Source: Branchiostoma floridae
Taxonomy: Eukaryota > Chordata > Leptocardii > Amphioxiformes > Branchiostomatidae
Direction: 5' to 3'
DNA length: 64,000 bases
Assembly: GCF_000003815.2 (NCBI RefSeq)
Contig: NC_049989.1
Coordinates: 20,333,127 to 20,397,126, forward strand
Shown here: one piece after another, positions 12,811 through 52,169 of the stretch
Layout: every line of letters starts with the position of its first letter
Position numbering within the stretch: the stretch's first letter is position 1
Notes under the pieces: generated by a model
Databases searched by the model: none
Told to the model about the DNA's origin: nothing
The model's input: only the letters and a program-made list of their open reading frames with translations
Made by a program: the position numbers and the translations under genes

Positions 12811-14638
12811 TCATGATTCCTCATCGGTGTCGGACAGAGGCTCGTACTGGGATGACAACAGAGGCGCCGGCTCGCCGTCGTGTCGGGCTGAGGTGGCCGG
12901 GGACGGGGCTGTCCTCTGCGCGGCTTCGTGGGCGATCTCGCCACCGGACGTCGGGGGCAGACCCTGTTGTGTTGCGGAGGAGGTTGGAGGGAGAGGGGAT
13001 GAGGACGGGCCCATGGATCCCCTCAGGAAGAGCGCCGAGAAGGGATAGGACGCGCTCGGTGCGTCGGCGGAGGAAGGGCGAGGGCTGGACCGAGGAGGCG
13101 TGGCTGCGCTGGATAGCCTGGAGCGTTCACTGCCTGTGGACGGCAACCGCCCGCCTGCTCCCATCTCCGCTTTCTGCGCCGCTGACATGTCTGGTGGACC
13201 AGGCATATCCGGGCGGCCGCGCGGGGAAGCCACCTCGGACATGGTGTGCTTCTTCTTCGGAGGGTAGCTGCGTGGCGACCGGCTCCGGTCTGCCACGGGG
13301 GCCTCTTTGGTCTCCGTTTCCGACTCGGTCTCCGTCTCGCTGTCGTTGCGCTGGCGCAGGATGCGGCTCTGCATCGAGCCGTCCCTCGGGGATGACGCAG
13401 AGGAGACCTGGTGGATCTGCTGCCCGTAGGAGTGGGTGGAGCTCGGCCTGGGCTGCTGTTGCTGCTGAGGAGGAGGATCCCCCTCATTCTCCTCATCATC
13501 TCCCATCAGAGCCTTGCGGATGATGTCCTCCAGGTTGGTGCCGACTCTAGGGGATGAACGTTTGGCCCCTCCACCCCAAGCCTGGCCAGCGCCGGGCCCG
13601 CTGGGAGGTGGACGACCGTACGGAGGCTGCTGCTGCTGTTGGCTTCTGGGGGGGACGTCCTGCGGGCGCGGCTGCCACTGCTCCGAGCCGGGCTGCGAGT
13701 CCTGGCTGTCGCCGGCTGGCGGAGAGATCGGCTCCACGTCGATGTTGCTCCTGGAGGAGTCGGAGCTGCAGCGCGCGTCCGGAGTCCTCGACCTCTGCAT
13801 GGCCGCCTCCCTTTCCTTTGCCGCCGGGGACCGGCTCAGGCTGGAGGTCGACTGCGGACGATGTAAAGGATTGGGCGCTGGGCTAGGGTTCTGGCCAGGC
13901 CTCTGGCTGTAGTCTTGGTGGATGATATTTGAGATGTGCTCGCCCAGGGTGATCTGCTGCACTTTCGTCGCCCTGTTAGTGGTGCTGTCGGCGTGGGCGG
14001 TGTTTCTCCCCGGCCCGTAGTGGTTCCCGGGAGGACCCTCCTGGGACGAGCTCTCCTGGCTCTCCCTCCGCCCGTGGTTCTGCTGTTGTTCCCGCGACGA
14101 CCCGTGGTCGGCCTCGGGAAGCTGCCACACGGGGGCACGGATACGCCCACCCTCCCCCTGCAGGGGTGTATGGCTCGGGCGCGGCGCGGGGGACACACGG
14201 CCCCGGGGAGGGCCACGCGAGGCGCTTTCTTGTGAATCATTTGACGACTCCTTCCTGTTGTCACCCGATATCGTGGCCGACGAGTTTATCTGGTGAGTGA
14301 TGATGGCGTCGATGAGGTTGGCTGCTGTAAGAGGACCCTGGCCCCCCTGGGGCGGGGGCTGCTCGGGAGGCTTGTCCTTCTCGAACGAAATCGATAGGAT
14401 CTGCGACGGAGATGTGATGGGCGATTTTGCCGGCTGCTCGGTGCTGCCTGGAGTGTGTGAACGGGAGCTTCTCCCTTCTTGCGGCTCTCTCCCGGCGCGC
14501 ACCATCTCCTGTCTGTACTTCATCAGCGGGGACTCGCGAGGATTCCTGTCTGCGGAGTGTGGGTCGGCTCGTTTCTGCGGGTGGACGGTGGCCTGGGGCG
14601 GAAGTCGCTCGGGCTCCGAGGGTCGGCGGACGTGTGAC
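12811..14638 (-). CDS. NCOR: NCoR exon 31 (receptor-interaction region, stop)
   Basis: An 1828-nt terminal exon, 609 codons including the stop at 12811-12813. Three CoRNR-type motifs: [11 protein letters not shown] (LIDAII at 14299-14316), LGEHISNII (13921-13947) and LEDIIRKAL (13507-13533), in the order of vertebrate RID3, RID1 and RID2. Gln/Pro/Ser-rich linkers lie between. The last residues are [20 protein letters not shown]. Acceptor ATTCACAG at 14639. Confidence 0.97.
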
Positions 14639-17600
14639 CTGTGAATAAGACATTTCAGTTGATTTATTCTCTTTTGCTCATTCATTTCTAATCACCTGCC
14701 CTGCATATAACGTAGACAGACAAAAAACAGCCAGGCATGCCCAACTAGCCTATTGCTATTACAAAGGGCTAGCTCTGCTGACAAAAATACATGTGGAATT
14801 GGACAAGATGCTTATCAACAACAATATTCTAAGTACATAAAAAGATAGAAATACAAAAAATTATATATACATGGTGTACTGTAAATGTATTTAAGTTCGC
14901 GGGGATTTAATTTCGCGGTAGCGGGAAAAAGGACTTTTCGCGGTGGATTTAAGTTCGCGGTAACATTATAGACTGCAATCTAATATCATAATAGGAAAAT
15001 GTTCGTGGTGGTTTTAAATTCGCGGTGAAATGGTCACCGCGAAAACCGCGAACATTAATCCACCGCGAACATTTCTGCATTTACAGTATTTCATAATTCA
15101 TTGTCATGTATTTTTTTTCTTTAAGTGCAAAACAAACAAACAAACAAACAAACCTGCGGTCCTGCTGCGCGTCTATCATCATGGGGTAGCCGGGGACCAC
15201 GTGGTGGCCCTTCTCCCTAATAAGTTAGTAAAGGTAGGCCTTTTCAGAAGTGGAAACTTTCGGCCTCCATTGCACTGTTGTGTTCTTTTATAATTCATTG
15301 TTATGTATCTAATTTTTTTTCTTTTCTTTCAAGTGGCCAAAATCTTACCCTGGGCAAGAACAATAAGGAAGTGCTCCCACTGTGACTTGTTCAGCAGTGA
15401 AAGGTGGATTCACCCCCATAACCACATAAACTCATAAACATCCCAGACTGTCTACAGACTGAAGGAGAATTCTTTGTACACAACCAGTGGGTACTTACAT
15501 ACTGTAGCTTACGTTTCGATGTCTCTCAGACACCTTCGTCAGAGACTTCTAACTGGAGTTCTGCTTCTCACCGCTATATGTAGCCGATGTAGGTGGCGCT
15601 TTTGCGGTGAGAAAGCAATCCCAAACGTGGCTTAGTTTGTATCCCCCCTCGTCCCGGTTCATCACTGGGGTTGACTTTCTTATCCAGATGGCCTCCTTAA
15701 TCCACCGTGCCCGCCTATTGTCTTCCCTGTCTATGACCTTCGCCCCCTCCCAGTCAATTACGCAATTGTTCCTGGCGATATGGTCTGTAACTGCCGACTT
15801 CTTTTCTTCTTTGAGCGCAAGTCTTTTCTGTGATCTTGTGGCATCTATGTTGTTGGTTTCTTTCTTGTGTTCTTCTAACCTCGTCCCAAAAGTCCTTCCT
15901 GTTTCACCAATATACACCTGATCACAGCTCTGGCACGGGATTCTGTACACACAGTCTGTTTTTAAGTCCTCCTGTTTGTCCTTAGGATGCACTAACAGAC
16001 TTCTCAGTGTTGTTTTGGGTTTCACTGCAGTCGCTATCCCGTGTTTTCGAAATACCCTTTCCAAAGGTTCCGTGACTCCAAGTTATGGAAAAGGTATGTT
16101 GATGACGTGGCAGAGGTGGTGAGGAGAGGAGCCCAGCAAGAGCTCACAGACCACCTTAACAGCATCGACCCCACCGGCAACATACAGTTTACGTATGAAG
16201 AGGAGAAGGAAGGCACACTACCTTTCCTTGACACCCTTCTAGTGCGTAAGGAGGATGGCACAGTGAAACTTTTGGTGTACAGGAAGAGTACGCACACGGA
16301 CCAATACCTAAACTTCCAGTCCCACCACCCTCTGCACCAAAAGTTAGGAGTAATCCGTACCCTGTTGGACCGATGCAACACCGTCACCACTGAAGACCAG
16401 GACAAAGAACAGGAAACACAACATGTCAAGAGAGCCCTCACACGCTGTGGCTACCCCCAATGGGCCTTCAACAAGGTGGAACAACAGAAGAAGAGACCTA
16501 AACAGAAAGAACTGAGCACTAAACAACAGGAAAAGACGAAAGGTATGGTGACCATCCCTTACATCAAAGGAGTCACGGAACCTTTGGAAAGGGTATTTCG
16601 AAAACACGGGATAGCGACTGCAGTGAAACCCAAAACAACACTGAGAAGTCTGTTAGTGCATCCTAAGGACAAACAGGAGGACTTAGCCAAAACAGACTGT
16701 GTGTACAGAATCCCGTGCCAGAGCTGTGATCAGGTGTATATTGGTGAAACAGGAAGGACTTTTGGGACGAGGTTAGAAGAACACAAGAAAGAAACCAACA
16801 ACATAGATGCCACAAGATACACAAGATCACAGAAAAGACTTGCGCTCAAAGAAGAAAAGAAGTCGGCAGTTACAGACCATATCGCCAGGAACAATTGCGT
16901 AATTGACTGGGAGGGGGCGAAGGTCATAGACAGGGAAGACAATAGGCGGGCACGGTGGATAAAGGAGGCCATCTGGATAAGAAAGTCAACCCCAGTGATG
17001 AACCGGGACGAGGGGGGATACAAACTAAGCCACGTTTGGGATTGCTTTCTCACCGCAAAAGCGCCACCTACATCGGCTACATATAGCGGTGAGAAGCAGA
17101 ACTCCAGTTAGAAGTCTCTGACGAAGGTGTCTGAGAGACATCGAAACGTAAGCTATGTAAGTACCCACTGGTTGTGTACAAAGAATTCTCCTTCATCCTA
17201 TATTCTACCAACCTGATGAAATTATTTTCGGATGTCTACAGACTGTCTACTACTAGCCAGGAACAATGGTCAGAGACAGATTAGCATAATACTGGTCACA
17301 AGATTCAAATATTCTGTACTGGTTTTCATAGGAACATTATCAAACCCAGGGTTATAGCCAGCACCTGTCCTTCCGTCCTTTGAGGGAATTTTGAAGCTGA
17401 GGCCGGAAAATTTTTTTGCCCATTCCCTCCTCTATGACAGACAAAAAGCTGTATCCCTTGTGTAATTTTTCACCAAAACAGATGCTGTCGAATAGCTTAG
17501 TCTACCAGCAAAATTTACACCTCAAAATGCAGGAAATAGCGTATCAGAGGGTCTAGATTTTGAGGGTAACATTCCTCTGGACCCCCTAGGAATGTCGCGC

Positions 17601-20600
17601 CTTCTGAGCTCAATAGTATTCAGAATCGAGGGGACGGAAAATGCTTTTAGGCTGGCTACAACCCTGATCAAACCATACAGATAAACAAACCAACCTGCGG
17701 TCCTGCTGTGACTCCATCATCATGGGGTAACCAGGGACCACATGGTGGCCCTTCTCCGGAGACTGGGGCGGGGCACTGCTCCTGCTGGCTGACCGCGGGG
17801 GAGTCATGGCGCTCCGAGGCCCCTCCCCTGGCCGCGAGGTGCTGGACGTGACCTCTGAACCGGACACGGGAGGCTTGATGGGGGTGCCCTGCGTGATGGA
17901 GCCGCCTCCCCCGCTGTCAAAGTGGGCCGCGCTGTGCTGGATCACGTTCTGCCGGCTGACCTGTGAGTGCTGCGGGGGGACTGGGTACCCCGGAATCACC
18001 TGTGCATAGAACATTTGTTTATACATTGTCATAGAACATTTGTTTACATTGTAGACATACTATAGAATTTTGGCAACAATTTAGATATTGGTGGAAAAGC
18101 GTGACAGAGCGAGAATACGATAATATATTGTGTAAGAGAACCGGTATATGAATGAATGAATGATATTTATTCAAGTGTTGTGTGTTTACCTTGCTTTTTG
18201 TATAATGGTAGCAAAATAGAGCCTTTACATTTGTTTTACTCAAGACATTAAACCCAGTATCCGACATTTCCTTTCACAACTAAAATTTCGAACATACATC
18301 ATGTACATGTAAGATGGAAGGTCCTTCTCTGTCTGTATCCATCCATGTTGTGGCACTTGTGTTTTTTGTATGTCTTTGTAATGTTTATTGAAATGAAATA
18401 AAAATTAAAAATCACCTGTGCCGGCATTCCTGGCCGGATCTGAGGCCAGGATGCGGACAGCGGGTACTGATAACCCTCCACTGAGACCGGCGGGGTGCTG
18501 GCACTGGACCTTTGCATAAGGGAGGATCCGTCGGTGATGTAGGGGAACATCCCCGGGTACACGAACATGACCCTTCCCTGTGGGTCGGTGATCATCCCTG
18601 GGGCCATCCCTGGGGGGTGCGGGAACATGCCCGGGTGGTGGACTGGATGCTCCATGGGCGGGCGGTGCTGTTGGGGCGAGTACCGCTTGTCTCTCGGGCT
18701 GCGGGGAGAGTGGCGTGCCTCCTTAGGGTACTCGACCGGCCGTTCCCGCGAGCGGGTCTGCTCGGCGTGCGCCGCGCTCATCTGCTGCGAGGTGAGAAAA
18801 TCCGCCATGAGCGTCGCTCGTGTTTCGGCCATCCCCTGGTACGGACTCACGTAGCCGGGTAGCGGGGACTTCCGCGTTCTTCCCTGGTACGGCATGCCTC
18901 CGTGAGGCTCTCGCCCGGGGCGCGTCGACATGTCCACCGGCGAATCGCGCGTCAGGTCGATCGCTCCCGAGCTTGCGCTCTCACGCGGGCTACGGGCGAT
19001 GTCAGGGCCGGAGGATGGCGGGCGGTCTCTCCCGTGGTACAGCGGGGTTCCCCTTGTGATGGACCCAGGCTCCAGCTTTCCAGCAGGGGATTTCATCGGC
19101 TTGTCCATCTCAGCAGGAGACTTCTTGGCTTCCATGGCGGCGCGGTGGGCAGCCTCATATCGCTCCCGGTCGTACGCCATCCTCAGAGCGCCCTCGTGGA
19201 TAACCGTGGGCGTGCTGCGCGACAGGGACGGCTCCATTCTCGGCGAGGGACTCTCGTCCTTCAGTGGAGTGCTTCTCCGCCGTGCCGGGCTGTCGGACCG
19301 ACCCGGGGTCCCCTGGATGTACGGCCCATCGCGTCTGCTCTCAGGGTGTGCAGGATGCTCCGCTCTCCCGGGCGACGATCGTGACAGGGTGTCGACCTGC
19401 AGTGCTCTGTTCACACCCTCAGAGTGGTGCATCGGCGTGCCTTGTGTGATGGATCCTGCTCGGGATGTGGGTGTCCCTCGCATCATTGCTCCACCGTATA
19501 CTGTCGACACTGGGTAGTCGATGGGAACACCAGTGTAGGGGTGGATGGGAACTCCCCTGGAGTCGCGGTAGATAGCTGTTCCTGGAGGAGGCACAGGTCC
19601 CCTTTGATCCTGCTTGTTGGGTTCGGCGATCGCACGCTGGATCAGCCCTTCGAACATCTCCTGCCCCGTTTTCTCCCGTCTCTCGTACTGTGGATGCGGG
19701 GATGCGCCGGGAACTTCCTCCGGCGCTCTCAAGGGAGTTCCTTTCGTGATCGAGCCTCGTGGACTCACTTCCTCGACCACCGGGTACTTCCGCATCCCCT
19801 CGCCTTGCATGGTCACCCGCGATATGTTGCTCTCGTACGACACAACGGGAGTGCCTCTCGTGATCGACCCCTCGATTCTCCTTGGCTCTCCCGCCGTGAG
19901 GAGGCCGTCGTGTTTCCTCGGAGTACCATGGATGATGGAGCCTTCGTTCGCCCCCCTCCTCCCTTCCGATGCCTCCTGCCTGCTTGATGGAGGCGGCGGT
20001 GGCACAACACCGGGATGGATCGCGTACGACATGGGGATCCCCCTGGTGATGGAACCTGTGTGGTACATTGGGTGCTGCGACTGGGGGGACATCTGCGGCC
20101 CCTTCCCTTTCGGGGAGGAGGATTTCGAGATGAGGGGAGGAGGAGGAGGAAGGCCTGGCTTGCTCTGCACCGGCATCGAGGACTGGTGAGGGACTCCCTC
20201 TGTCACCGGGACCAACCCTGTGTCACAAATAGGGAAACAGCCTTGAGACATATATAACAACAAAATTCTTTTTTCTGATGTCTGTAAGTTCCCAGAAAAC
20301 CCAACTGATATACCATCCTAGCCCCTTGTAGCAGTCACATACATGTATGTACAGTTGTTACCTTAATTCATTCCACTATTTGATTACCTTTATTTATCGT
20401 TACCACATTCCACTACTTTACTTTTCTCTTTATAACTTATAACCAATTTTGTTTAATATAAGAGGAGGAAGGCCAAGTATAAGCTATATACGATTTTTCC
20501 CTCTTTCTGCACCTCCATTGTCCATCTATTGCCTATCATTTCATGTATTACGTTTTTTTCTTGTTGTGCAAACAAACAAAAAACACAAACCGTGGGGAGC

Positions 20601-44600: not shown

Positions 44601-47600
44601 TTGCAGTAAACCCAAATTATTCCAAACTTGGAAAAGGTTTTCTTTCTCATGCTTCAATGTCAAGAATGCTGTGACGCAGTATTGAAACGACTGTTTGGAC
44701 GAGCGCTCCACAGCCTACTCCTTCATTCGCTCATCAACTGACGTCCCCACCAAAAGATTTGAATATACAGTTCCCCCCACAGGTAGCAGAAGCAAACATA
44801 GGTACCCAGGCTACAAAAACAATGAGCTGGAGACAGTCCAGCTCACTGCATCCTCACCTGTCGCCGCTGGCGGGATGACCCTGGAACTCGGAGAGAAGCG
44901 AGGGTCGGCGGCGCATCTGCCCGGGCGGCTGGCCCTGCGGCAGGGCATAGTGAGGCGTGTAGTCCTGCGGTCGGGCCTGCGGTAACGCTCGGTACTCGCT
45001 CACAGTGGACAGCTCCTGTAAGGGTAAGGTACATGCATGTAAGGGAGAGCTATTATTGTCATGTACAATGTAGTAGTAGTCAACTGTGTTCTGCCAATGC
45101 AGTGGTCTGGACACTGCATGTACAATGTACAAGTCGTTTATTCAATTTTAATCCCCTAACATAAACACAGCGTTGTGTGACATGTAGTCCTGCGGTCGGG
45201 CCTGTGGTAATGCCCGGTACTCGCTTACATTAGACAGTTCTTGTACGGTACACAAATGGGGGTTGATGTCACAATGTACATCTGCATACTGTAAACGCAG
45301 AAATATTCTAGATGGTTTTATGTTCACGGTTTTTAAGTTGCCAATTCACCGCGATCATAAAACAACCATGAACATTTTTCCATGGCATTAAGAGACTACA
45401 GTGCTTTTCCCCGCCACTGCAAAATTAAATCCCCCCGAACTTAAATGCATTTACAGTAATGTCTTTGAGTCACATGAGCTTCTTAAAGATCCCACCACAT
45501 ATTAATGCTTGGTGCTAAAAGCTTTGCAATTCAGCCCTAGGGCTGCAAAGAAGCATTCAATCCATGCTGCTCTTTGCTCCTTGGAAAATAAACCAGTCTG
45601 CTACTGGTGGATACGTTACGCCTTAATGTGGTTTACAGGTTAAGTGAAACAAGCCGTTCAATTTGCAGGGCTCGAAATTCATTTTTGGGATTAGGTCCAC
45701 TGGTGCACCCAGCTTAAAAAATTGGGTGCACCAAAAAATTTTTGGGTGCACCACTTAAATTTAAGTAGAATGTCAGAAAAACCTGATAACAAAACTTAGT
45801 CATATTTTCATCATGTACCATGACAGGCATTTTTATATCTTTCTAACACTTAGATGTCAAGAATATGATGTATACTAGTATACTTTGATATCTTTACATA
45901 CATTAGCCTATGAAAATATTGGGTGCACAGCTCCAATTTTGGGTGCACATGCGCAGCACCCAGTATTTCGAGCCCTGATTTGGATGCATTTATGTCATAG
46001 TACCTGGGTATACACTGCACCACAAGTGCCATGTAGATACACAAAACTTGCAGGAAAACCACATGGAGGGGCAGTAGGTAGAAGCCATGCCATGCCTTCA
46101 ATCCTGAGACAGAACTGAGGGACTATCAAGCCGTCAGTCCCAACAAAGTTGAACACCCTTGATTCTTGAATCTTAGCCAAAACTGTCACTTCCAAATTCA
46201 CAGACAAGCCATTAGTGACTGACAGCCCCTAACAGTTGATAAGCCATATTTGGATGTCAGACTTACCAATAAACGAGAGAAAATAAAAACAATCCAGTGC
46301 AAGCTGCTCTGATACCTACCTCTACACCACTTACATGCACATCAAAGGCTATCTACATGTACCACAAAAAAATAATGTCCAAACCAAAAGATACAAAACC
46401 AGAAGTTATGCTGCACTACCAAGGAAAATTGCCATGGGGCACAAAATCGACCTTGACCTTCCTCCCTCAAATTCCTAGGCATGACCACAAAACTGTCAAT
46501 CTATCCGAAAGAGCTTAAATTATGCTGATTACAAATATCCCAAAACACAGAAACAGACAGACATCCAGAGAAACCTCAAACAAAGCATAGTGTGGTATGT
46601 TGGTGACTTACTGTAAATAAATTTTAAATCCGTGGTGGTTTAACTAGCTATGAAATGAAATAATGTTCACATTTTTCAATGTAATCTCTTCACTGTGAAG
46701 TTAAAGCGAAGTGAAAATGCCCAGTCTTTTGCTGGCCTAACACCGTGTTTCCATCACAAACTAACTAGAAAACCATGGCAAACACTCCATTTTCTACCCA
46801 CTGAAATCAAACCACTGCAAACTTCAATACAGTTACAGTAGTTACATTATACAGTACGTGATGATCTAGCCTGGAGTAATGTGCACTGCAGGCAGTTTGT
46901 TTGTTTTGTTTGAACCTTTGTTTATTCATGAAAGCTCAAATCGGCCTGCAGGCCGCTTTTCATCGAGGTCATGAGGGATGAGGCAAGGGTCAGACAACGT
47001 ATATAACAGAGATACAGTTTTAAGTCCTTATGAGTCTTGTAGGCCCATATACACGATTCCTTTAGAAGAGAGGGATTGGGTTACGCTGATCTTGATCAAG
47101 CCAAATGTGCCAAGTTCAAGGAGAGCTACAAGAGGTTCACCTAAACAAGAACACAGTCTGATTTAACTTATGTGAGTGTGAGCTATGTGAAGCTGATATC
47201 CACATGTCTTGAACAGATGCCAAATTGTAACTAGAACTTTTTTACATCAATGGTAATTGCACAGTAAGTAAGTACAGAGGATTAAATTTAAAATGAAGGG
47301 CATTTCCACTTCATGGGAACAGTTTGTTCTGCATGACCTACGAACTGAACCATTTGGATATGATCCAGTATGTTAAAGGAGGACTAAGTCTTTAATACAG
47401 TTTTTCATCAATTCCTTGAGTGTTGAATTTGCCATGGTTACTCATAATGGTTGCTGTCTCAGTGGAACTTGGAAAGTAAGTAAATTGTGCCATACTTTTA
47501 GACAAAAAGCCACAGAGAGTCACATTAAAGAACCCATCACATTCAAGTCATTTCAAACTTATGTTGAAACATGGCATTTGACGATCTGGCCTGGGGTAAC

Positions 47601-50600
47601 GTTCACTTATGGCAGTCCCTTTAGAAGAGAGGAATCGGGGTGCGCTGAACTTGATCAAGCCAAATGTGCCAAGTTCAAGGAGAGCTACAAGAAGTTCACC
47701 TAAACAAGAACACAGTCTGATTTACCTTATGTGAGTGTGAGCTATGTGAAGCTGATATCCACGTGTCTTGAACAGATGCCAAATTGTCTACTAGAACTTT
47801 TATCATGGATGCCAATTGCATGTAGTAAGTACAGAGGATTAAAATGGAGTAAGGGCATTTCCACTTCATCGGAACAGTTTGTTCTGCATGACCTACGAAC
47901 TAAACCATTTGGATATGATCCAGTATGTTAAAGGAGGACTAAGTCTTTCATACAGTTTTTCATCAATTTCCTTGAGTGTTAAATTTGCCATCAGGGTTCT
48001 AGCCAGTGCATTTTAGCGTTGTGGGCCCCTACGCTAAAATTTGTGACCACTACGCTAAAATAAGGGCCACTACGCTAATTTTTAACTAGTGTAGTGGTGT
48101 TTTGGTATCATTTGCATGTTCAACAATGTCTTATCAATGTCTGCACAATGAAAAATGGTGATATGACCCTTAAAACTGACCAGAAAATCCAACAATTTAC
48201 ATGTGATGTTAACAAAGTGCCAACTTTTAACTCTACATTTTCAAAGTCTCACCGTGGAAGGGCCAAGACCCCCCTTCCACACCATTCCCACTACGCTAAA
48301 ATGAAATCCTGGCTAGAACCCTGGCCATGGTTACTCATAATTTGGTTGCTGTCTCAGTGGAACTTGGAAAGCAAGTAAATTGAACTATACTTTTAGACAA
48401 AAAGCCACAGAGAGTCACATTAAAAAACCCATCACATTCAAGTCACTTCAAACTTATGTTGAAACATGACGTTTGACTGTCTGGCCTGGGGTAACGTTCA
48501 CTTATGGCAGTCCCTTTAGAAGAGAGGAATCGGGGTGCGCTGAACTTGATCAAGCCAAATGTGCCAAGTTCAAGGAGAGCTACAAGAAGTTCACCTAAAC
48601 AAGAACACAGTCTGATTTACCTTATGTGAGAGTGAGCTACGTGGAACTGCTATCCACGTGTCTTGAACAGATGCCAAATTTTCTACTAGAACTTTTACCA
48701 TCAATGCCAATTGTACATACAAGAAGAACAGCCATATTACAGAACCCATCACAATCTTTGATACAGTAAGGCACCATCTTGGTATGTGTGGATCACACAG
48801 CCTGCACTTGCTGTACAGAACTTATGAGTTATACGTTAACTGATTACTGATAATACAATGCGAACAACATACAAAAGCTATACTTCTAAGTTCTATATGC
48901 AGTTGTCATCACAAAGATTGCAGTATGAAGTTCACAGCAGGTAATGATGGCAAGTGTCCAGGAAACGTGGGTACCAGCAGGCTGAGTACACACTCCATAC
49001 TGGCAGGTTGCAACAATGGGTGACCTGGGACACCGCTCGTTTGGTTAAGGTCCAGGACAGGGCTTTAGCCAGCTCGAAATTTTTTTTCCATCAGCCAATA
49101 ACAATCGTCGCGAAAACCGCGAAAATTAAATAGAAGAACTGAACTGAGACCTTGAAAAACGGGTTTTAATGAGATTATCGTATGCTAAAGGGCGCCGACA
49201 CACTTTGTCAACAATAATAACAATAGCAAAACAAACAGTGTGTGGCTTTTACGGCCGTGGACGGCGTCCCCAAGCCACCTGTAGCTTCCACCAACGATTT
49301 TTGTCCTTCAAGGTTGACGGACTGGTTTTAAAATTTTTCCGTCAGACGCAGCAAATTTCCGTCAATTGACGGAAAAAAGGGCGCTGGCTAGAGCCCTGGT
49401 CTAGGACAAGTTTTTTTCTGTCCCACTCATTGTTTGATAGCCCATGCTGTTGATTTTAGCTGTTAAGTCTATTATTTTAAGGTGACAAAAATAAATTTTT
49501 GTCAGTTTGATGTGAAGAAGTTCAGTTTTCTGTAAGGACAGGGATGCGTCCAGGATGGGGGAAGGGGTCCTGGAGACAGCACTGGCCCAGGAGCCTAGGA
49601 CCCGTCTAGGCGTCTAGCTTTCTTTTGTTTAAGCTTTGTTAAGTTTAAGACACGCTACTCTTAGAAAGACGTCATTCAGACAAGTCTTAGAGGAAGGAAC
49701 AGCATATAAATTTTCATAACAGAACACCTTGCTTTCTGTCCATTTATTCCCTTGAACTGAAACACATTACACTATTACGGACAGAAAGTTCATACAACTA
49801 CAAGATGTTTCTCCTTCGGGAAAATGAGTTGGCAAAATACACTATATGGAGAAGTCAAACTGTTTGCCAAACCGTGTGCGGTGTACACTGGAGTGGCATA
49901 CTTTACTGGTACACACTGCTCAAGACCATATGTGTTCTTGTACATATCCCTACTGTAGTACATGTACGTTAGCCTCCATAGTAGGCTCTTTGGGGCCTTT
50001 TTTGGGCTCAAAATACACTTTTGCTGTTCATTTCTATTTGTACTCGGTCGCTGATTGCTGGCGCTTTCTGATTGCCGGCCTGCAAGAGCCTGCATGGAAA
50101 CGGCGTATGAAAGTGATATTAAAAAACGATTAGAGCGATTAACTAGGTGCGAATTTCCTGCCTGCCGTGGACGGCTCATAAACTACACGCATCTCCACCG
50201 GACAGTGCGCTGTCACGCCCTGTGTGCACTGACCCGACAATTCTCTAACGGTTTCGGGGTCAAACGGCTTTTTAAAAATACAGAAGTGAAAACTCAACTG
50301 TTCGACATTCTGTGATATGGGATCATATGGGGCTTTCCCCATCTGAAGCCCGAGTTATAAAATGCTTGCAGCCGACATGCGAATTGCCTCTCAAGGAGTT
50401 GTGAATTATTCCTAACGTGTGAGTTAATAAGGCCGATGAATGGCTGATCGTTTTTTAATATCACTTTCATACGCCGTTTCTATGCAGGCTCTTGGAGGCC
50501 GGCAATCAGAAAACGCCAGCAATCAGCGACCGAGTACAAATAGAAATGGCCAGCAGAAGTGTATTATGAGCCAAAAAAAGGCCCCAAAGAGCCTGCTATG

Positions 50601-52169
50601 GAGGCTACATGTACGTACAGCATACACATAGACGTAAAGCAAGGACAACAACAACAACAACAACACTTCCAAAATGACAGTTTCTTACCTGTCCATGGTG
50701 GGCTTGTGTACTGGCATACATTGCTACGTATAAAAAACATAAAATCTAAAAGTACATTCGGCATACGTTTCCAAAAGGACTTGAGACTTTATTCGAACAT
50801 CCATTTGTTTCTTACCTGTCCATGGTGCGTTCGCTGCCCGTGCACAGCATACACCGGGGTAGCATACTGACTGGTGCCCAGGACGAACCGGCTCTGCTCC
50901 GGACCGTTCGAGTACGGCGGCTGGACTCGTACCGAGGAGGACGGGCTGGGCAGGCGGTGCCGCTTGAACGGCGGCGACCCCTCGTAAGGGGGGCCATTCT
51001 GACCCCTGGGGACAAAGGTCAAAGTGTAAGTAGTTGCTTGAGGGGGATCTTGTTTGTTTTATAATTCCTGAAAAGCTGAAATTAGCACAGTCTGTGAGTG
51101 GCTGCTTTTCAATAAAATGTGAATTCCATTTCAAGTTGGAGACAATAACTGAATAAGTAAATAACAGCACTTATAATAATATTATTATTTATATTAATGA
51201 TATCTTGTTCAGATATAAACACACACACACACACTCTATACATGTTCTTTTTTTCATTTCTAAATGCATTCATTTTCTTACAGACTTAGTTTTACACAGA
51301 TTGACATGACTACGTACCAAGAACATGTACACCCCTCTCCGTCAGAGAGAACATTAATGAATTGAACATGTGTATGGGTAAATGTAATTATATTATAACT
51401 TATAAGCCCTGCTTACACATAAAAACCCAACCCACTTCAACTGGGAAATAACATATAAACACTCGACTTCCACACTTAACAAAAATTATTCCTCATCGGA
51501 GATTGAACAATTTTTGCTCGTCTACATTTTATATCTTGACAGTCGACTGATTCTCTACCTTAATTTTATAAATCTAAGTAACTCAAATAACGTTACAATA
51601 ATAAAGAAACAGACTAACAAAATCTTTAATAAGGCTTTAGCTGTCCTTATCAAACTATGTGAAGAATAAGTCGGCCTATTATCCAAGTCTACAGCTTGAA
51701 GATATCTGTCCAAGACGGAGAAGTTGGCCTTTGGCAGTCTTCAGTAAACCACAGTCACCACAAAATTTATGGGTATTTTCATAAGATCAAATTCATCCAT
51801 CTCCCGAAAACCCTAACTCTGCTCGCAGCTTTTCCCATAAATGTCACATACCAGGGATTAGATCTGAGAATATGAAAGAGTTTTCTTGTACAGGTCTGTT
51901 TTATGAAGCTGAGTGATAGGAGAATGCCAAGGCTAAAGAACTGTGCGAACTGTCGCCATTTTTTCGCGGGTGGATTTTTGCGGTGGTTCGGCAAAGAAAT
52001 CGGGCGGTTTTTCGCGACAAATTTCGACGTCGCATCCCTCAGACCCACACAGGAGTATTCTTACGGCAGTTTTGTACTTAGATGTTGGGAGAAAGGGGAA
52101 CAAATAAAAGAAAAAGGGGGTAAAATATCGGTTAGAAACGAACCTGTCGTTGGGCTGTCGCGAAGCCAT
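12811..52169 (-). CDS. NCOR: Nuclear receptor corepressor (NCoR/SMRT orthologue), complete, 31 coding exons
   Basis: I joined 31 GT-AG exons whose phases all match; they total 7476 nt, encoding 2491 residues (human NCOR1 and NCOR2 are about 2440 and 2525). Features in order: [10 protein letters not shown] and KRPRLA motifs; coiled coil with [20 protein letters not shown] (about 230-255), the TBL1/GPS2-binding part; HDAC3-activating region with SANT1 (about 495-546, including [12 protein letters not shown]); ten-cysteine segment (612-716); SANT2 (745-800); [12 protein letters not shown]; nine GSITxGTP-type repeats; CoRNR boxes at about 1991-1996, 2114-2122 and 2252-2260; C-terminus [15 protein letters not shown], nearly as in vertebrates. 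The protein is expected to scaffold HDAC3/TBL1/GPS2 in the nucleus and to bind unliganded nuclear receptors. Ten exons have an edge copied into an adjoining intron. A 63-nt cassette exon (15154-15216) would raise the length to 2512. Confidence 0.95.
14879..15086. mobile_element. Mariner-like MITE, CTGTAAATG family, copy 1
   Basis: Ends CTGTAAATGTATTTAAG and CTGCATTTACAG are inverted and flanked by TA. Inside are several TTCGCGGT boxes on both strands. Lies in the last NCoR intron. Relatives at 45299-45456 and 46611-46838. Confidence 0.72.
15154..15216 (-). CDS. NCOR: Candidate NCoR cassette exon (duplicate of exon 30 end)
   Basis: 63 nt between acceptor TTATTAG and donor CGCAG|GTTTGT, encoding [20 protein letters not shown]. 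It takes 1 nt from exon 30's 2-nt overhang and leaves 2 nt itself, so it can be included between exons 30 and 31 or skipped without shifting the frame. The differences from exon 30 keep the frame open. The acceptor has a poor pyrimidine tract, so it may be silent. Confidence 0.5.
15513..15542 (-). ncRNA. Hammerhead-like core in Penelope tail (left arm)
   Basis: Reverse complement of the motif at 17118-17147: CTGACGA, a 7-bp stem with GAG loop, then GAAAC. Penelope terminal repeats are known to carry hammerhead ribozymes. One extra A precedes stem II compared with the consensus, so activity is uncertain. Confidence 0.4.
15549..16064 (-). pseudogene. Penelope-like GIY-YIG fragment (inverted arm)
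   Basis: 171 open codons matching the C-terminal part of 16079-17111, from ERVFRKHG to the common C-terminus. It lacks two residues in two places relative to the right arm. No reverse transcriptase motif is kept. Confidence 0.85.
16079..17111 (+). pseudogene. Penelope-like reverse transcriptase/GIY-YIG, 5'-truncated
   Basis: Open over its whole length but starts inside the reverse transcriptase, just before the catalytic [12 protein letters not shown] motif. The RT thumb follows, then a GIY-YIG nuclease with [20 protein letters not shown] and a downstream WIRK motif. Fingers and most of the palm are missing, so it cannot be autonomous. Confidence 0.85.
17118..17147 (+). ncRNA. Hammerhead-like core in Penelope tail (right arm)
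   Basis: CTGACGA, then GGTGTCT pairing with AGACATC around a GAG loop, then GAAAC. Similar cores occur at 21891-21920 (minus) and 41646-41676 (plus), with more decayed ones near 21110, 21502, 29735 and 35360. Confidence 0.4.
17339..17674. mobile_element. hAT-like MITE with 8-bp target duplication
   Basis: The element 17347-17666 has ends CAGGGTTATAGCCAGC and GCTGGCTACAACCCTG. ATCAAACC flanks both sides (17339-17346 and 17667-17674). An 8-bp duplication and CAGGG-type ends fit hAT. Confidence 0.8.
17695..17999 (-). CDS. NCOR: NCoR exon 30
   Basis: Encodes [18 protein letters not shown], a ninth repeat ([12 protein letters not shown]), and [20 protein letters not shown]. Phase 0 in, 2 out. 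Its 3' 63 nt reappear as a separate phase-matched exon at 15154-15216. Confidence 0.93.
18416..20217 (-). CDS. NCOR: NCoR exon 29 (GSITxGTP repeat exon)
   Basis: A 1802-nt exon with eight motifs of the form [32 protein letters not shown] or GPYIQGTP, the hallmark repeats of NCoR/SMRT repression domains. It also has SYAIHPG and the conserved ADFLTSQQM block that vertebrates have before the receptor-interaction region. 2 nt in, phase 0 out, donor CAG|GTGATT. Confidence 0.95.
20591..20821 (-). CDS. NCOR: NCoR exon 28
   Basis: Encodes [17 protein letters not shown] through RVGRLAPH; Arg/Ser/Pro-rich. 2 nt in, 1 out, both splice sites phase-matched to neighbours. Overlapping open frames in the other strand and frames are GC-rich shadows. 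Confidence 0.85.
20881..20972. mobile_element. Right-end fragment of GGGCTCGAAATAC-type MITE
   Basis: Matches the right part of the element at 41051-41361 (CAGAGTGGTACAGGTA, TTACCTGCACC) and ends TATTTCGAGCCCTG. The left end is missing. Confidence 0.6.
21045..21160 (+). mobile_element. Penelope-like 3' tail fragment
   Basis: Closely follows the end of the element at 17060-17160 (GGCGCCACCTACATC, ATATAGCGGTGAGAAGCAGA) but carries a mutated hammerhead-like core (CAAAC in place of GAAAC). Confidence 0.75.
21425..21960. mobile_element. Inverted pair of Penelope-like tails enclosing a SINE
   Basis: Arms at about 21450-21545 and 21860-21960 are inverted copies sharing CACCTGTCCTGCAG, CCAGTCAGAA and GTGACAGACAGTCACC with a hammerhead-like core. 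Between them lies a minus-strand tRNA-derived SINE (about 21560-21815) whose head reads TGGCTGAGTGGGTAGAGTG and whose tail carries ATACCAAAGAC. Confidence 0.6.
22135..22323 (-). CDS. NCOR: NCoR exon 27
   Basis: Encodes [18 protein letters not shown] through [12 protein letters not shown]. 2 nt in, 1 out. Its 5' third and acceptor are the template of the array at 22324-23590; only the acceptor next to 22323 leaves a full reading frame. Confidence 0.9.
22324..23590. repeat. Minisatellite made from the NCoR exon 27 acceptor edge
   Basis: About eleven tandem units, eight of about 130-138 bp and three shortened to about 67-75 bp. Each includes intron end, acceptor CTCCAG and the first part of exon 27 ([18 protein letters not shown]). 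Reading on from any outer acceptor soon meets a stop in the AT-rich part (ATTAACACTCG repeats), so only the innermost acceptor supports the protein. Confidence 0.9.
23963..24199 (-). CDS. NCOR: NCoR exon 26
   Basis: Encodes [17 protein letters not shown] through [11 protein letters not shown]. 2 nt in, 1 out, donor CCAG|GTAATT. Disordered, Ser/Pro-rich. Confidence 0.88.
24608..24758 (-). CDS. NCOR: NCoR exon 25 ([12 protein letters not shown] motif)
   Basis: [18 protein letters not shown] through [30 protein letters not shown] is shared with vertebrate NCOR1. Phase 0 in, 1 out. Acceptors 120 and 240 nt further upstream (exon ends 24878 and 24998) are in frame, so 40- or 80-residue longer forms are possible. 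Confidence 0.92.
24759..25365. repeat. Minisatellite made from the NCoR exon 25 acceptor edge
   Basis: Five more copies of the [20 protein letters not shown] unit with its acceptor, ending at 24878, 24998, 25129, about 25258 and about 25363. The first two steps are exactly 120 bp, so they stay in frame; the third step is 131 bp and does not. Confidence 0.88.
25819..26004 (-). CDS. NCOR: NCoR exon 24
   Basis: 62 codons, [17 protein letters not shown] through [10 protein letters not shown]; acidic, then Pro/Glu/Lys-rich. Phase 0-0, donor AAG|GTGAGT. Confidence 0.88.
26514..26636 (-). CDS. NCOR: NCoR exon 23
   Basis: 41 codons, [16 protein letters not shown] through [12 protein letters not shown]; Ser/Glu-rich and presumably disordered. 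Phase 0-0, donor GAG|GTATCG. Confidence 0.85.
27214..27566. mobile_element. hAT-like MITE with 5-bp target duplication, GGCAACCTG type
   Basis: The element 27219-27561 has ends CAGTGCTCGAAATAC and GTATTTCGAGCCCTG, flanked by TTCTT on both sides. The inside carries inverted CCAAGTGGCAACCTG boxes. A relative is at 61451-61757. Confidence 0.8.
27580..27770 (-). CDS. NCOR: NCoR exon 22 (SANT2)
   Basis: [20 protein letters not shown] through [12 protein letters not shown] is the complete SANT2 domain, linked in vertebrates to histone-tail binding. 2 nt in, phase 0 out. The 5' edge with its acceptor is copied twice upstream (27912-27990 and 28101-28160). Confidence 0.96.
27912..28160. repeat. Two copies of the NCoR exon 22 acceptor edge
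   Basis: GGGAGGTCTCCACTGTT followed by TAACTGTTAA(A/G)CAGAT repeats at 27912-27990 and 28101-28160. It copies the acceptor and first codons of the SANT2 exon plus adjacent intron. Confidence 0.8.
29205..29455. repeat. Tandem duplication of about 125 bp
   Basis: Two copies share AATGCTGTACATGTTTCAGT and CCAAAGAAGCCAAT, ending just short of exon 21. The exon itself is not included. Confidence 0.8.
29481..29603 (-). CDS. NCOR: NCoR exon 21 (Cys-rich, CCATC)
   Basis: Encodes [20 protein letters not shown], then a Gly/Glu/Ala-rich tail ending ASEQ. It closes the ten-cysteine segment just before SANT2. 2 nt in, 1 out. Confidence 0.9.
29725..29835. mobile_element. Decayed Penelope-like tail pair
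   Basis: Inverted GCTGAAGAG..GATGGATGTAACTC and its complement lie about 40 bp apart, with hammerhead-like cores damaged at GAAAC. Same motif as 41646-41676. Confidence 0.4.
30095..30210 (-). CDS. NCOR: NCoR exon 20 (Cys-rich, CPVPTC)
   Basis: Encodes [19 protein letters not shown] then [19 protein letters not shown]. Two further cysteines and a strongly basic patch. 1 nt in, 1 out, donor TTTG|GTAAGA. Confidence 0.88.
30390..30895. repeat. Fourfold repeat including the NCoR exon 19 donor edge
   Basis: Units start ACAGACAGTAACAGTGACA and contain CCACATGTACTGTTC. The rightmost unit runs into exon 19's donor (TACCTAAGTTCA), and the third unit carries a copy of it (TACCTAAGCTCA). Units are about 115-170 bp. 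Confidence 0.78.
30884..31073 (-). CDS. NCOR: NCoR exon 19 (Cys-rich, CVICG and CSKCRC)
   Basis: 190 nt encoding [14 protein letters not shown] and [18 protein letters not shown]. Five cysteines in CxxC and CxxCxC patterns suggest metal binding. Vertebrate NCOR1/2 have low-complexity sequence between the SANT domains as I recall them. The 3' edge with its donor belongs to a fourfold repeat at 30390-30895. Confidence 0.88.
31537..31607 (-). CDS. NCOR: NCoR exon 18 (acidic linker)
   Basis: 71 nt, [17 protein letters not shown] then PERTTSN. 1 nt in, 1 out, donor AATG|GTAAAG. Confidence 0.82.
31840..31883 (-). CDS. NCOR: NCoR exon 17 (charged linker)
   Basis: 44 nt, [14 protein letters not shown], phase 0 in, 2 out, donor GCAG|GTATGT. 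A low-complexity linker; its identity comes from the phase fit with both neighbours. Confidence 0.8.
32222..32332 (-). CDS. NCOR: NCoR exon 16 (SANT1 end)
   Basis: [19 protein letters not shown] completes SANT1, followed by a basic tail. The tyrosines and paired lysines of YYYxxKKNENYK form the HDAC3/inositol-phosphate contact in vertebrate SMRT. Phase 0-0. Confidence 0.96.
32725..32779 (-). CDS. NCOR: NCoR exon 15 (SANT1 core)
   Basis: [18 protein letters not shown], the middle helix of SANT1 and almost invariant in NCORs. 1 nt in, phase 0 out. Confidence 0.96.
32905..33202. repeat. Three copies of the NCoR exon 14 donor edge
   Basis: ACATACTTCTCCTTGAAGAT with the SANT1-start codons and donor recurs at 33015-33081 and 33146-33202, and in diverged form at 32905-32958. 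Each copy preserves GAGAAGTATGT or near it, so decoy donors are present downstream of the true one. Confidence 0.88.
33297..33475 (-). CDS. NCOR: NCoR exon 14 (start of SANT1)
   Basis: Encodes [17 protein letters not shown], then [21 protein letters not shown] and the SANT1 start [13 protein letters not shown]. Phase 0 in, 2 out, donor GAGAA|GTATGT. Its 3' edge with the donor is copied three times in the downstream intron (32905-32958, 33015-33081, 33146-33202). Confidence 0.96.
33945..34090 (+). mobile_element. Non-LTR retrotransposon 3' tail
   Basis: GGGGGAGGCCCAAGAAAAGC and CATGTACTTC, then an AATAAA-rich end and an AAAG microsatellite, as in LINE 3' ends. No coding part is kept. Confidence 0.5.
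34208..34670 (+). mobile_element. tRNA-headed SINE with A-rich tail
   Basis: The head has A box TAGCACAGTGGTAGTG and B box GGTTCGAATCC. Then come TTGTGCCCTTGGGAAAGGCA and a body with GGACGTTAAATGGAGGTCCC, shared with the 5S-headed SINE at 1095. It ends in about 15 A residues. Confidence 0.85.
34692..34782 (-). CDS. NCOR: NCoR exon 13
   Basis: Encodes [16 protein letters not shown] then [14 protein letters not shown], aligned with the vertebrate block ending in GLSEQE. 1 nt in, phase 0 out, donor GAG|GTGAGG. Confidence 0.95.
34827..35197. mobile_element. hAT-like MITE with perfect 8-bp target duplication
   Basis: The element 34835-35189 has ends CAGGGCTTTAGCCAGG and CTGGCTAGAGCCCTG, flanked by CTACATGT on both sides. 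The inside has TTCCGTCA boxes. The closest relative is 49058-49398. Confidence 0.88.
35820..35840 (-). CDS. NCOR: NCoR exon 12 (21-nt microexon)
   Basis: Only 21 nt (1 + 6 codons + 2) between acceptor TTTCAG and donor GGAG|GTAACA, encoding about AKNGERR. It fits the variable link between ERFS and TGARG. Being a multiple of three, it can be skipped without frameshift. Confidence 0.75.
38352..38438 (-). CDS. NCOR: NCoR exon 11
   Basis: Encodes [18 protein letters not shown] then [10 protein letters not shown], conserved with vertebrates. 1 nt in, 2 out, donor CCAG|GTAAGG. Confidence 0.95.
38851..38936 (-). CDS. NCOR: NCoR exon 10
   Basis: Encodes [18 protein letters not shown] then [11 protein letters not shown]. 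Matches the vertebrate CQRYDQLMEAWEKK block. Phase 0 in, 2 out. Confidence 0.95.
39209..39275 (-). CDS. NCOR: NCoR exon 9
   Basis: Encodes [17 protein letters not shown] then MRKLR. Acceptor CTGCAG, donor AGG|GTAAGA, 1 nt in, phase 0 out. Confidence 0.95.
39404..39603. repeat. 34-bp minisatellite
   Basis: About six nearly identical 34-bp units, TGTTTCCTGTTTCCTTACTA followed by ACCCTAGAATGTTG. It is in the intron between exons 8 and 9 and does not touch an exon. Near-identity suggests recent expansion. Confidence 0.95.
39755..39807 (-). CDS. NCOR: NCoR exon 8
   Basis: Encodes [17 protein letters not shown], highly conserved in the HDAC3-activating region. Phase 0 in, 2 out, donor AGAC|GTACGT. 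Confidence 0.95.
39957..40013 (-). CDS. NCOR: NCoR exon 7
   Basis: 19 codons, [19 protein letters not shown], nearly identical to vertebrate NCORs. Phase 0-0, donor CTG|GTAAGT. Confidence 0.95.
40640..40792 (+). mobile_element. Non-LTR retrotransposon 3' tail
   Basis: GTTCGGGGTTCTCTCCCCAG, then GGCATTGAAAAACGCCAT, AATAAA, and ACAAACAAAC repeats: a LINE-type 3' end just right of the exon 6 donor side. Confidence 0.5.
40821..40937 (-). CDS. NCOR: NCoR exon 6
   Basis: Encodes [17 protein letters not shown] through [13 protein letters not shown], colinear with the vertebrate LEEEAAKP and IVQIIYDENR segments. 39 codons, phase 0-0. Confidence 0.95.
41046..41366. mobile_element. hAT-like MITE with 5-bp target duplication, CTGCACC type
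   Basis: The element 41051-41361 has ends CAGGGCTTGAAATACC and GGATTCCAAGCCCTG, flanked by TGATG on both sides. The inside is rich in ACCTGCACC and GGTGCAGGTA. Confidence 0.82.
41646..41676 (+). ncRNA. Hammerhead-like core, Penelope-type tail
   Basis: CTGAAGA, then GAGTGA pairing with TCACTC around TGGATG, then GAAACGTC. The following sequence (to about 41755) resembles a Penelope-type terminal segment. One extra A before stem II departs from the consensus. Confidence 0.38.
41799..41984 (-). CDS. NCOR: NCoR exon 5 (TBL1/GPS2-binding coiled coil)
   Basis: The last half, [19 protein letters not shown] followed by [14 protein letters not shown], is the conserved coiled coil that binds GPS2 and TBL1 in vertebrates. 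62 codons, phase 0-0, acceptor CCCCAG, donor CAG|GTGGGT. Only this innermost acceptor gives the full exon; about eleven outer copies of its 5' part lead to stops. Confidence 0.95.
41985..43690. repeat. Minisatellite made from the NCoR exon 5 acceptor edge
   Basis: About eleven units, each with acceptor CCAG and the exon 5 start ([18 protein letters not shown] through SPSKLSK). The left part is a two-unit block repeated with a 299-bp period (41985-42582), the middle is identical 148-bp units (about 42583-43175), and the right part is more diverged. 148 and 299 are not multiples of three, so the arrays do not read through; outer acceptors lead to stops. Confidence 0.93.
43775..43865 (-). mobile_element. 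SINE fragment
   Basis: On the minus strand it shares ATACCAAAGACGTTGAAAAT and TGCTGCTTTCT with the SINE at 21560-21815; a GATACCC string resembles a decayed B box. Confidence 0.45.
43969..44173 (-). CDS. NCOR: NCoR exon 4 (KRPRL motif)
   Basis: Encodes [11 protein letters not shown] through [15 protein letters not shown] and ends SSDHRR. KRPRL is the conserved basic motif after exon 3's SLLSEF in vertebrates. Phase 1 nt in, 0 out, donor AGG|GTGAGT. A single copy of its 5' edge and acceptor sits 191 bp upstream (44315-44386). Confidence 0.92.
44315..44386. repeat. Copy of the NCoR exon 4 acceptor edge
   Basis: 72 bp nearly identical to 44124-44195, including the first 17 codons of exon 4, its acceptor and 20 bases of intron. 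Confidence 0.9.
44858..45015 (-). CDS. NCOR: NCoR exon 3 ([10 protein letters not shown] motif)
   Basis: Encodes [13 protein letters not shown] through [13 protein letters not shown], a stretch conserved near the N-terminus of vertebrate NCOR1/2. Acceptor TTACAG, donor GACAG|GTGAGG, phase 0 in and 2 out. Its 5' edge has a decayed copy at about 45181-45246. Confidence 0.92.
45181..45246. repeat. Decayed copy of the NCoR exon 3 acceptor edge
   Basis: TAGTCCTGCGGTCGGGCCTG and GGTACTCGCT match exon 3 codons about 200 bp to the left; the acceptor region is mutated. Confidence 0.82.
45299..45456. mobile_element. Mariner-like MITE, CTGTAAATG family, copy 2
   Basis: Ends CTGTAAACGCAG and TGCATTTACAG, flanked by TA. 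Orientation opposite to 14879-15086, with which it shares CCCCCGAACTTAAATGCAT. Confidence 0.68.
45661..45982. mobile_element. hAT-like MITE with 5-bp target duplication, GGGTGCACC type
   Basis: The element 45666-45977 has ends CAGGGCTCGAAATTC and GTATTTCGAGCCCTG, flanked by ATTTG on both sides. The inside has inverted GGGTGCACC boxes. A longer relative is at 62149-62673. Confidence 0.85.
46611..46838. mobile_element. Mariner-like MITE, CTGTAAATG family, copy 3 (diverged)
   Basis: Starts CTGTAAATAAATTTTAAATC after TA and ends AGTTACAG before TA; ends are less alike than in copies 1 and 2. Confidence 0.45.
46897..47055 (-). mobile_element. Non-LTR retrotransposon 3' tail
   Basis: Starts with TTTGTTTGTTTTG on the plus strand, so A-rich at its 3' end on the minus strand, then GGCCTGCAGGCCG. 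It interrupts the repeat unit that precedes the copy starting at 47061. Confidence 0.45.
47056..48720. repeat. Tandem repeat of a 559-bp unit
   Basis: TTTAGAAGAGAG marks unit starts at 47061, 47620 and 48515. Units share GATCAAGCCAAATGTGCCAA and TGTCTTGAACAGATGCCAAA. The second unit is longer because it holds the MITE at 47992-48323; without that the period is unchanged. The third copy is partial. Confidence 0.9.
47987..48328. mobile_element. hAT-like MITE with 5-bp duplication, GCTAAAAT type
   Basis: The element 47992-48323 has ends CAGGGTTCTAGCCAGTG and TGGCTAGAACCCTG; GCCAT is duplicated on its flanks. The neighbouring repeat unit has the uninterrupted site TTTGCCATGGTTACTCAT, which proves both ends. 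Confidence 0.9.
49050..49406. mobile_element. hAT-like MITE with 8-bp target duplication (7/8)
   Basis: The element 49058-49398 has ends CAGGGCTTTAGCCAGC and GCTGGCTAGAGCCCTG. Flanks GTCCAGGA and GTCTAGGA differ at one base. Closely related to 34835-35189. Confidence 0.85.
49865..49945 (-). repeat. Diverged copy of NCoR exon 2 3' part
   Basis: The minus-strand translation has [18 protein letters not shown], alike to exon 2's [20 protein letters not shown]. The donor is not kept. Confidence 0.6.
49961..50616. mobile_element. Mutator-like foldback element with 9-bp target duplication
   Basis: The element 49970-50607 has inverted arms of about 160 bp (49970-50133 and 50447-50607) starting TAGCCTCCATAG. 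CATGTACGT flanks both sides (49961-49969 and 50608-50616). Long arms and a 9-bp duplication are Mutator-type traits. No transposase frame. Confidence 0.85.
50687..50740 (-). repeat. Copy of the NCoR exon 2 donor edge
   Basis: TTTCTTACCTGTCCATGGTG, holding donor CAG|GTAAGAAA, is repeated about 125 bp left of the true donor at 50814. Confidence 0.78.
50816..51005 (-). CDS. NCOR: NCoR exon 2
   Basis: Encodes [18 protein letters not shown] through [18 protein letters not shown]. The acceptor is CCCCAG and the donor CAG|GTAAG, with 1 nt in and phase 0 out. Its 3' edge is copied at about 50687-50740, and a diverged longer copy ([10 protein letters not shown]) lies at about 49865-49945. Confidence 0.85.
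52144..52169 (-). CDS. NCOR: NCoR exon 1 (start codon)
   Basis: The ATG is the complement of 52167-52169. Eight codons (MASRQPND) plus two bases end at donor GACAG|GTTCGT, which is weaker than the other donors. The two bases join the first base of exon 2 to make Arg. A six-codon upstream frame ends one base before this ATG. Confidence 0.7.

Follow-up and report, generated by a model that had tools for sequence, protein, structure and literature searches.

Tandem copies of exon edges in the amphioxus NCoR gene display coding constraint consistent with sequence exchange with the genuine exons

Ten exon edges of a single amphioxus gene, the one encoding the nuclear receptor corepressor NCoR, are accompanied by nearby copies of themselves (nine edges being clear and one weak), and these copies, here termed decoys, differ from the genuine exon and from one another mainly at sites that are synonymous in the frame of that exon. 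Neutral decay of the decoys is rejected by the data presented below, and their constraint is best explained by exchange of sequence with the genuine exon, a reading that we consider probable and that is drawn from one haplotype sequence. The analysed window comprises 64,000 nucleotides of Branchiostoma floridae (assembly GCF_000003815.2, contig NC_049989.1), and all positions refer to this stretch.

The NCoR gene lies on the minus strand and contains 32 coding exons with consistent phases and a single terminal stop, one more than the 31 exons counted in a first-pass annotation of this DNA. Its product of 2532 residues is identical at 2505 positions to P0001 (LOC144874293 isoform X4), a protein from the independent annotation of a B. 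floridae x B. japonicum hybrid, with 0 internal gaps; this best match marks the host as a cephalochordate gene, and the SANT/DAD region matches SMRT/NCOR2 (4a69, E=1.5e-43). The protein difference of about 1.1% between the window and P0001 is read here as within-species variation; for the Chinese lancelet B. belcheri, an allelic dS of 0.070-0.075 and a dN/dS of 0.067-0.089 have been reported (PMC4284660). A second annotated protein, P0002 (LOC144916696, floridae x belcheri hybrid annotation), is 98.5% identical to P0226, a partial B. belcheri record, and given this identity it probably stands for B. belcheri. The gene model was drafted by splice-aware dynamic programming and subsequently corrected against P0001: early versions counted decoys as exons, and both a 21-nt candidate exon (44364-44344) and a run of candidates of 60-67 nt at 43.5-42.5 kb turned out to be decoys. 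Regarding the N-terminal 353 residues, 0 of 105 matches were labelled Branchiostoma, many of these matches carrying no species label. Another lancelet protein, P0227 (B. lanceolatum Hypp9392, 746 residues), is NCoR-like but shares only about 64% identity with the remaining lancelet sequences, and is perhaps a degenerating paralogue. Upstream of NCoR, on the same strand, a long open reading frame (56352-59267, minus strand) displays a NACHT domain (E=1.3e-25) and leucine-rich repeats, and is predicted to encode an NLR-type immune receptor.

To catalogue the exon-edge copies, the 100 bp around every one of the 62 splice junctions were aligned locally with the 2.5 kb flanking them in each direction. 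The score threshold was set at 121, five above the 99th percentile of 150 shuffled queries, whose maximum was 132. Clear copies, the best of which scored at least 195 at every edge, were found at the acceptors of exons 3, 4, 5, 22, 25 and 27 and at the donors of exons 14, 19 and 30; donor 2 fell below the threshold in this general scan, and its degenerate copy was obtained from a targeted search only (Table 1). The total amounts to 39 copies, with 1, 1, 11, 2, 5 and 11 (3 truncated) at the six acceptors in the order given, 3, 3 and 1 at the three donors, and 1 at donor 2. This agrees with the first-pass annotation, which had listed ten copied exon edges with one to about eleven copies each. 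A marginal copy at acceptor 17 (score 123) was left out of the count, as was the similarity between acceptors 17 and 18 (score 123-132), which resembles a common polypyrimidine tract. Each unit consists of an exon edge and the adjoining intron, with lengths of roughly 80-190 bp, and no unit was found that duplicates a complete exon. Junction overlap is minimal in two donor-19 copies with 3-4 exonic nt, in one acceptor-27 copy with 5 exonic nt, and in the outermost acceptor-25 copy, which crosses the junction by 2 intronic nt. Among the large arrays, that of acceptor 5 has a period of about 148 bp with a two-unit higher-order repeat of 299 bp, the decoys of acceptor 25 are mostly spaced by 120-131 bp, and the full units of acceptor 27 mostly by 130-138 bp.

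Table 1. Coordinates of the NCoR coding region, its exon-edge copies and two contrast cases within the window.
Feature	Position	Strand	Details and source
NCoR coding region, 32 exons	12811..52169	-	ATG at 52169, stop ends 12811
Weak degenerate copy of the exon-2 donor edge	50667..50720	-	Score 118 vs shuffled maximum 103
Acceptor-3 mirage, one decoy	44941..45300	-	Decoy 45300-45166; pairwise alignment
Acceptor-4 mirage, one decoy	44114..44386	-	Decoy 44386-44310, 97% identity across 72 nt; pairwise alignment
Acceptor-5 mirage, 11 decoys	41878..43748	-	Upstream of exon 5 (41984-41799); alignment and unit extraction
Donor-14 mirage, three decoys	32834..33358	-	Downstream of exon 14 (33475-33297); pairwise alignment
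Donor-19 mirage, three decoys	30378..30895	-	Downstream of exon 19 (31073-30884), mostly intronic, 3-12 exonic nt; pairwise alignment
Acceptor-22 mirage, two decoys	27756..28202	-	Decoys 28202-28100 and 28027-27909, each with 15 exonic nt; pairwise alignment
Acceptor-25 mirage, 5 decoys	24669..25428	-	Upstream of exon 25 (24758-24608); alignment and unit extraction
Acceptor-27 mirage, 11 decoys (3 truncated)	22230..23628	-	Upstream of exon 27 (22323-22135); alignment and unit extraction
Copy of the exon-30 donor edge	15128..15216	-	Exon 30 at 17757-17669; alignment, P0001
Intronic 34-bp minisatellite, clear of splice sites (contrast case)	39404..39604	.	Window scan; family span 39340-39619
Tandem duplication within intron 21 (contrast case)	29207..29450	-	Begins 31 nt past the donor; alignment

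With a tandem unit across the exon-intron boundary at 9 clear and 1 weak of the 62 junctions, the NCoR arrays fit the definition of the amphioxus mirages. The likeness to mirages, already pointed out in the first pass, is confirmed by the published descriptions of Adh3, the globins BflGb6 and BflGb9, TnC and PGBD5 (PMC3087553, PMC3902484), and further loci are cited in PMC3087553 via papers on retinol dehydrogenase and presenilin. In known mirages as in NCoR, one exon-intron border is tandemly duplicated into the intron, on the acceptor or the donor side; the described units (150-160 bp in BflGb6, 157 bp in BflGb9, 60 and 108 bp in PGBD5) overlap those of NCoR in size, AG or GT is often retained, as it is in the NCoR copies, and for the described mirages regular splicing is reportedly undisturbed. 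However, these sources describe mirages at one border, or two, per gene in a small number of amphioxus genes, whereas in NCoR ten borders of one regulator are involved, the coding constraint of the decoys has been measured, and one of the copies figures in an annotation as a coding exon. Neither frame-specific constraint of decoys nor such a density per gene was found in the passages of the mirage literature covered here; PMC3087553 does propose that a mirage unit may turn into an exon, and it notes concerted evolution inside mirage clusters.

Local duplications in NCoR are enriched at splice sites. A whole-window scan at one sensitivity yielded 14 families in this gene scoring at least 150 and not purely exonic, and 9 of these span exactly one splice site, as compared with 3.2 expected under random tolerated placement (P=0.0008), in one gene picked for its striking looks. 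Placement was considered tolerated, by a rule of our own, when wholly intronic or across exactly one junction; arrays were collapsed, and unit lengths and collapsed spans are our estimates. The 14 families omit donor 2, acceptors 17/18, weaker intronic families at 15087, 27219 and 36708, weak exonic families at 13319, 18614 and 18976, and a transposon fragment pair (17020/21012); a wider set with donor 2, acceptors 17/18 and three weak intronic families gave 11/19 (P=0.0007-0.003, for p=0.22-0.26). Donor 21, spanning according to the window scan, was classed as non-spanning, given that its best alignment begins within the intron. Five intronic families avoid splice sites (the two contrast cases of Table 1, 26820-27205, 41030-41325 and 45352-48731), in addition to weaker ones. 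Consequently, the earlier statement that copies always span the splice site was too strong, and the suggestion that selection tolerates copies only there is contradicted by the five families. Enrichment at splice junctions is supported in this gene. As for other repeats, a three-part repeat in intron 2 (47059-48717, about 95% identity over 390 bp) is possibly a transposon remnant, and two copies 14 kb apart in the same orientation (34917-35015 and 49133-49231, 91% identical) are probably a dispersed element.

The coding constraint was assessed by counting distinct states in eight decoy families, excluding donors 2 and 30 as well as 3 of the 11 acceptor-27 copies. Read in the genuine exon's frame, these families gave 27 nonsynonymous (N) and 64 synonymous (S) states, where 67.7 N are expected (P=3.7e-19). 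Reading the same columns one or two positions out of frame gave 76:11 and 79:10, against 62.7 and 65.4 N expected, with no N deficit. The deficit was also present when decoys were compared with decoys alone (16 N:47 S, P=3.4e-16) and in private states of single copies (22 N:41 S, P=4.2e-11), and it was left unchanged by transition and CpG weighting: among 111 parsimony events, 29 were N, against expectations of 80.8 for a weighted neutral null and 63.7 for a lenient fossil model (P=1.9e-11), in which the genuine exon changes silently only and N per site is at least half of S per site. Under this lenient model, P was 0.011 for the five small families alone (N 14/36) and 6e-6 for the variable columns of the three large arrays (13 N:38 S). 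Summed over decoys, S:N differences were 49:3 at exon 5, 16:8 at exon 25 and 21:7 at exon 27, with 0 stop codons, and the pN/pS of the large arrays ranged from 0.02, at acceptor 5, to 0.14; the small families were less constrained, as in acceptor 3 (5 N:9 S) and donor 14 (8 N:8 S). Silent divergence between decoys and exon was 0.168, 0.206 and 0.158 at exons 5, 25 and 27, respectively, versus 0.128, 0.239 and 0.036 for the intronic part, i.e., comparable at exons 5 and 25 and much lower in the intron at exon 27. Since plain decay of an intronic decoy would produce N changes at the neutral rate, the observed N deficit rejects it.

The splice signals are retained as well, with AG or GT kept in 38 of the 39 copies (30/31 acceptor copies and 8/8 donor copies, respectively), and the sole loss of AG at the homologous position is that of the acceptor-3 decoy. 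PWM acceptor scores of the 27 array decoys (1.8-3.7) fall inside the range of the genuine sites (0.9-5.5), and thus motif strength cannot separate decoys from true sites. No decoy insertion was found in the three proteins compared, P0001, P0002 and the partial P0226, all of them annotations. Presumably, the decoys leave splicing undisturbed because no fitting partner splice site lies an exon's length away from them. The decoy acceptors at 24998 and 24878 are of genuine strength, with potential protein variants of 80 or 40 additional residues.

The decoys could be ordinary tandem duplicates that decay after birth, their position at exon edges being due to chance or to a filter against protein-altering duplications. 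This would account for the absence of whole-exon duplicates among the units, and within the acceptor-25 array intronic divergence is far higher in the two outer copies than in the three nearest the exon; however, neutral fossils were predicted to reach a pN/pS of at least about 0.5, far from that of the large arrays, their lenient version is rejected by the complete data and by the small families, decay is also rejected for the decoy-decoy pairs, and chance placement yields about a third of the spanning families observed, all of which leaves this reading quite improbable. An improbable alternative, too, is direct function, i.e., that exonic parts of decoys enter minor transcripts as alternative acceptors or in-frame extensions and are selected as coding sequence. 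Two acceptor-25 decoys (24998 and 24878) are indeed open in frame to the genuine donor at 24608, adding 240 or 120 nt, AG is kept in 27/27 array decoys, weak internal donor candidates (-0.7 to 0.6, with genuine donors down to -1.0) are present in 10/11 acceptor-5 and 5/5 acceptor-25 decoys, and exon 31, described below, is a precedent for a copy becoming coding. Conversely, 25 of the 27 array decoys hit a stop before the genuine donor, so that translation cannot account for constraint in most of them; donors above -1 in the open part were found in 0/11 acceptor-27 decoys, and the annotated proteins lack decoy insertions.

Regarding the origin of the copies, breaks or template switches might favour exon-intron borders (through R-loops, positioned nucleosomes or GC steps) and thereby generate the duplications, which we hold possible but rather doubtful. 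The enrichment in NCoR speaks for such a process, as do several spacings that approximate a nucleosome in length (148 bp at exon 5 and 120-141 bp elsewhere); yet five families lie away from borders, including three whose units are about 120-190 bp apart, the enrichment is seen in one gene, and exchange with the exon would keep exon-anchored copies recognisable for longer, which may yield part of the excess. Finally, it is very improbable that the copies derive from collapsed or falsely joined haplotypes. Allelic divergence would likewise be mainly synonymous, and one mirage was misassembled in an earlier B. floridae draft (PMC3087553), but duplicated haplotypes would not be expected to yield as many as 11 copies of about 130-150 bp that have a higher-order structure, the duplication of exons 30/31 is also found in an independent annotation, and the PGBD5 mirages are reported to have been upheld in re-examined Sanger and Illumina data.

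According to the exchange explanation that we prefer, the decoys would be mirage-type minisatellites, short tandem duplications of one exon edge and its neighbouring intron, most of them untranslated and yet engaged, through gene conversion or unequal recombination and for the most part between alleles, in two-way exchange of sequence with the genuine edge. Each of the copies may then turn into the genuine edge, where selection would purge amino-acid, frame or splice damage, and the decoys would constitute an exchange pool of functional exon edges. To the stronger proposition, that intronic decoys stay translatable and spliceable through write-back into the exon by inter-allelic gene conversion and not through use, we give even chances. 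Several features are consistent with exchange. The Hudson-Kaplan minimum number of recombination events, which assumes no recurrent mutation (another possible source of incompatible site pairs), was 3 at exon 5, 2 at exon 25 and 4 at exon 27. An in-frame CCC of the genuine exon 27, present in the window and in P0001, recurs in a single non-adjacent decoy, the fourth full one away, and is missing from the other 7 full decoys and from B. belcheri. Moreover, the acceptor-25 decoy at 25259 carries the P0001 allele (a stretch of 13 residues): the 28 residues that it encodes match those of the genuine P0001 exon 25 exactly, at a site where the window's own exon 25 presents a different reading (a stretch of 15 residues).

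In forward simulations, run with 2-3 replicates per setting, a scaled population and parameters of our choice, only two-way inter-allelic exchange came close to the data: at 1000-6000 times the mutation rate, it led to a silent divergence of 0.13-0.20 and a pN/pS of 0.11-0.17, versus 0.16-0.21 and 0.02-0.14 in the observed arrays. One-way copying outward from the exon resulted in low silent divergence or high N:S, and its inter-allelic form gave low N:S only with a silent divergence of at most about 0.04-0.06; exchange restricted to one chromosome homogenised the copies, and simulated neutral fossils did not fit. The exchange model falls short at the acceptor-5 array, where pN/pS is tighter than in every simulated setting, and the low intronic divergence at acceptor 27 relative to exonic silent sites is not predicted by it; the predicted excess of allelic differences at mirage edges points the right way (4/206 versus 23/2326 residues differ from P0001) without reaching significance (P=0.27). 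For B. floridae, a mutation rate of 5.89e-9, a silent diversity of 0.0397 and an Ne of about 1.7 million have been published (PMC12862219), as well as a pedigree of 104 offspring in which 9,992 paternal non-crossovers were scored across 6.71 million markers, with a mean tract of 99 bp and 90.9% of tracts under 200 bp (PMC12500494). The quotient of these published counts is a conversion rate of 1.4e-5 per marker and transmission, which exceeds the published mutation rate about 2,430-fold and is of about the same order as the simulated exchange rate; this rate was measured for allelic exchange, and exchange of units out of register is inferred.

In small tandem families undergoing concerted evolution by gene conversion, copy number inflates silent divergence, and mosaic copies and shared variants appear. 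NCoR shares these features and differs in that only one member is functional, the others being intronic partial exons, and constraint on these would be second-order, via write-back. If this is true, selection on the exon would reach non-coding DNA, as second-order purifying selection on intronic sequence; the array would lift silent diversity at the exon edge several-fold and supply it with allelic variants, an effect that the very large populations of amphioxus and its high rate of conversion would enable. Ten mirage borders in one regulator, with decoys under coding constraint, offer a measurable system, readable from phased genomes, for the rate of exchange between an exon and its neighbours, for selection through conversion and for the step from decoy to exon. 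Furthermore, intronic sequence that resembles conserved exon can mislead gene prediction and dN/dS scans in lancelets, as it did our early NCoR models.

The step from decoy to exon is represented by the copy of the exon-30 edge, an 89-bp segment comprising the last 63 nt of the exon and 26 nt of intron at 86.5% identity. The first-pass annotation had recognised this copy correctly but placed it in the intron, whereas P0001 includes its translation (21 residues) in frame after exon 30. The resulting exon 31 (15216-15154, 63 nt, phase 2 to 2) starts with the first base of the copy, directly after an intronic AG. Exon 31 is missing from both B. belcheri records, P0002 and P0226, and the B. lanceolatum protein P0227, 64% identical and possibly a paralogue, likewise has a single copy of the exon-30 edge. 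On the basis of annotation, exon 31 would be a mirage turned coding exon in this lineage, and a gain is favoured over a loss in B. belcheri. As in intron or exon gain by tandem duplication, a duplicated exon edge is flanked by an acceptor and a copied donor. In the Rogers-type model of intron gain by tandem genomic duplication, the splice site reportedly lies inside a copied AGGT; exon 31 differs in that a 63-nt segment is gained as an additional exon, with the acceptor AG at the start of the homology and not within AGGT. Between exons 30 and 31 there is also a near-perfect inverted repeat (15453-17202), with arms of about 630 bp and long blocks of 100% identity, surrounding an open reading frame on the plus strand (15996-17111). 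A Pfam search of this reading frame returned no family; it contains YVDD and what we take to be GIY-YIG-like motifs, and the whole structure resembles a Penelope-like retroelement bearing an inverted terminal duplication.
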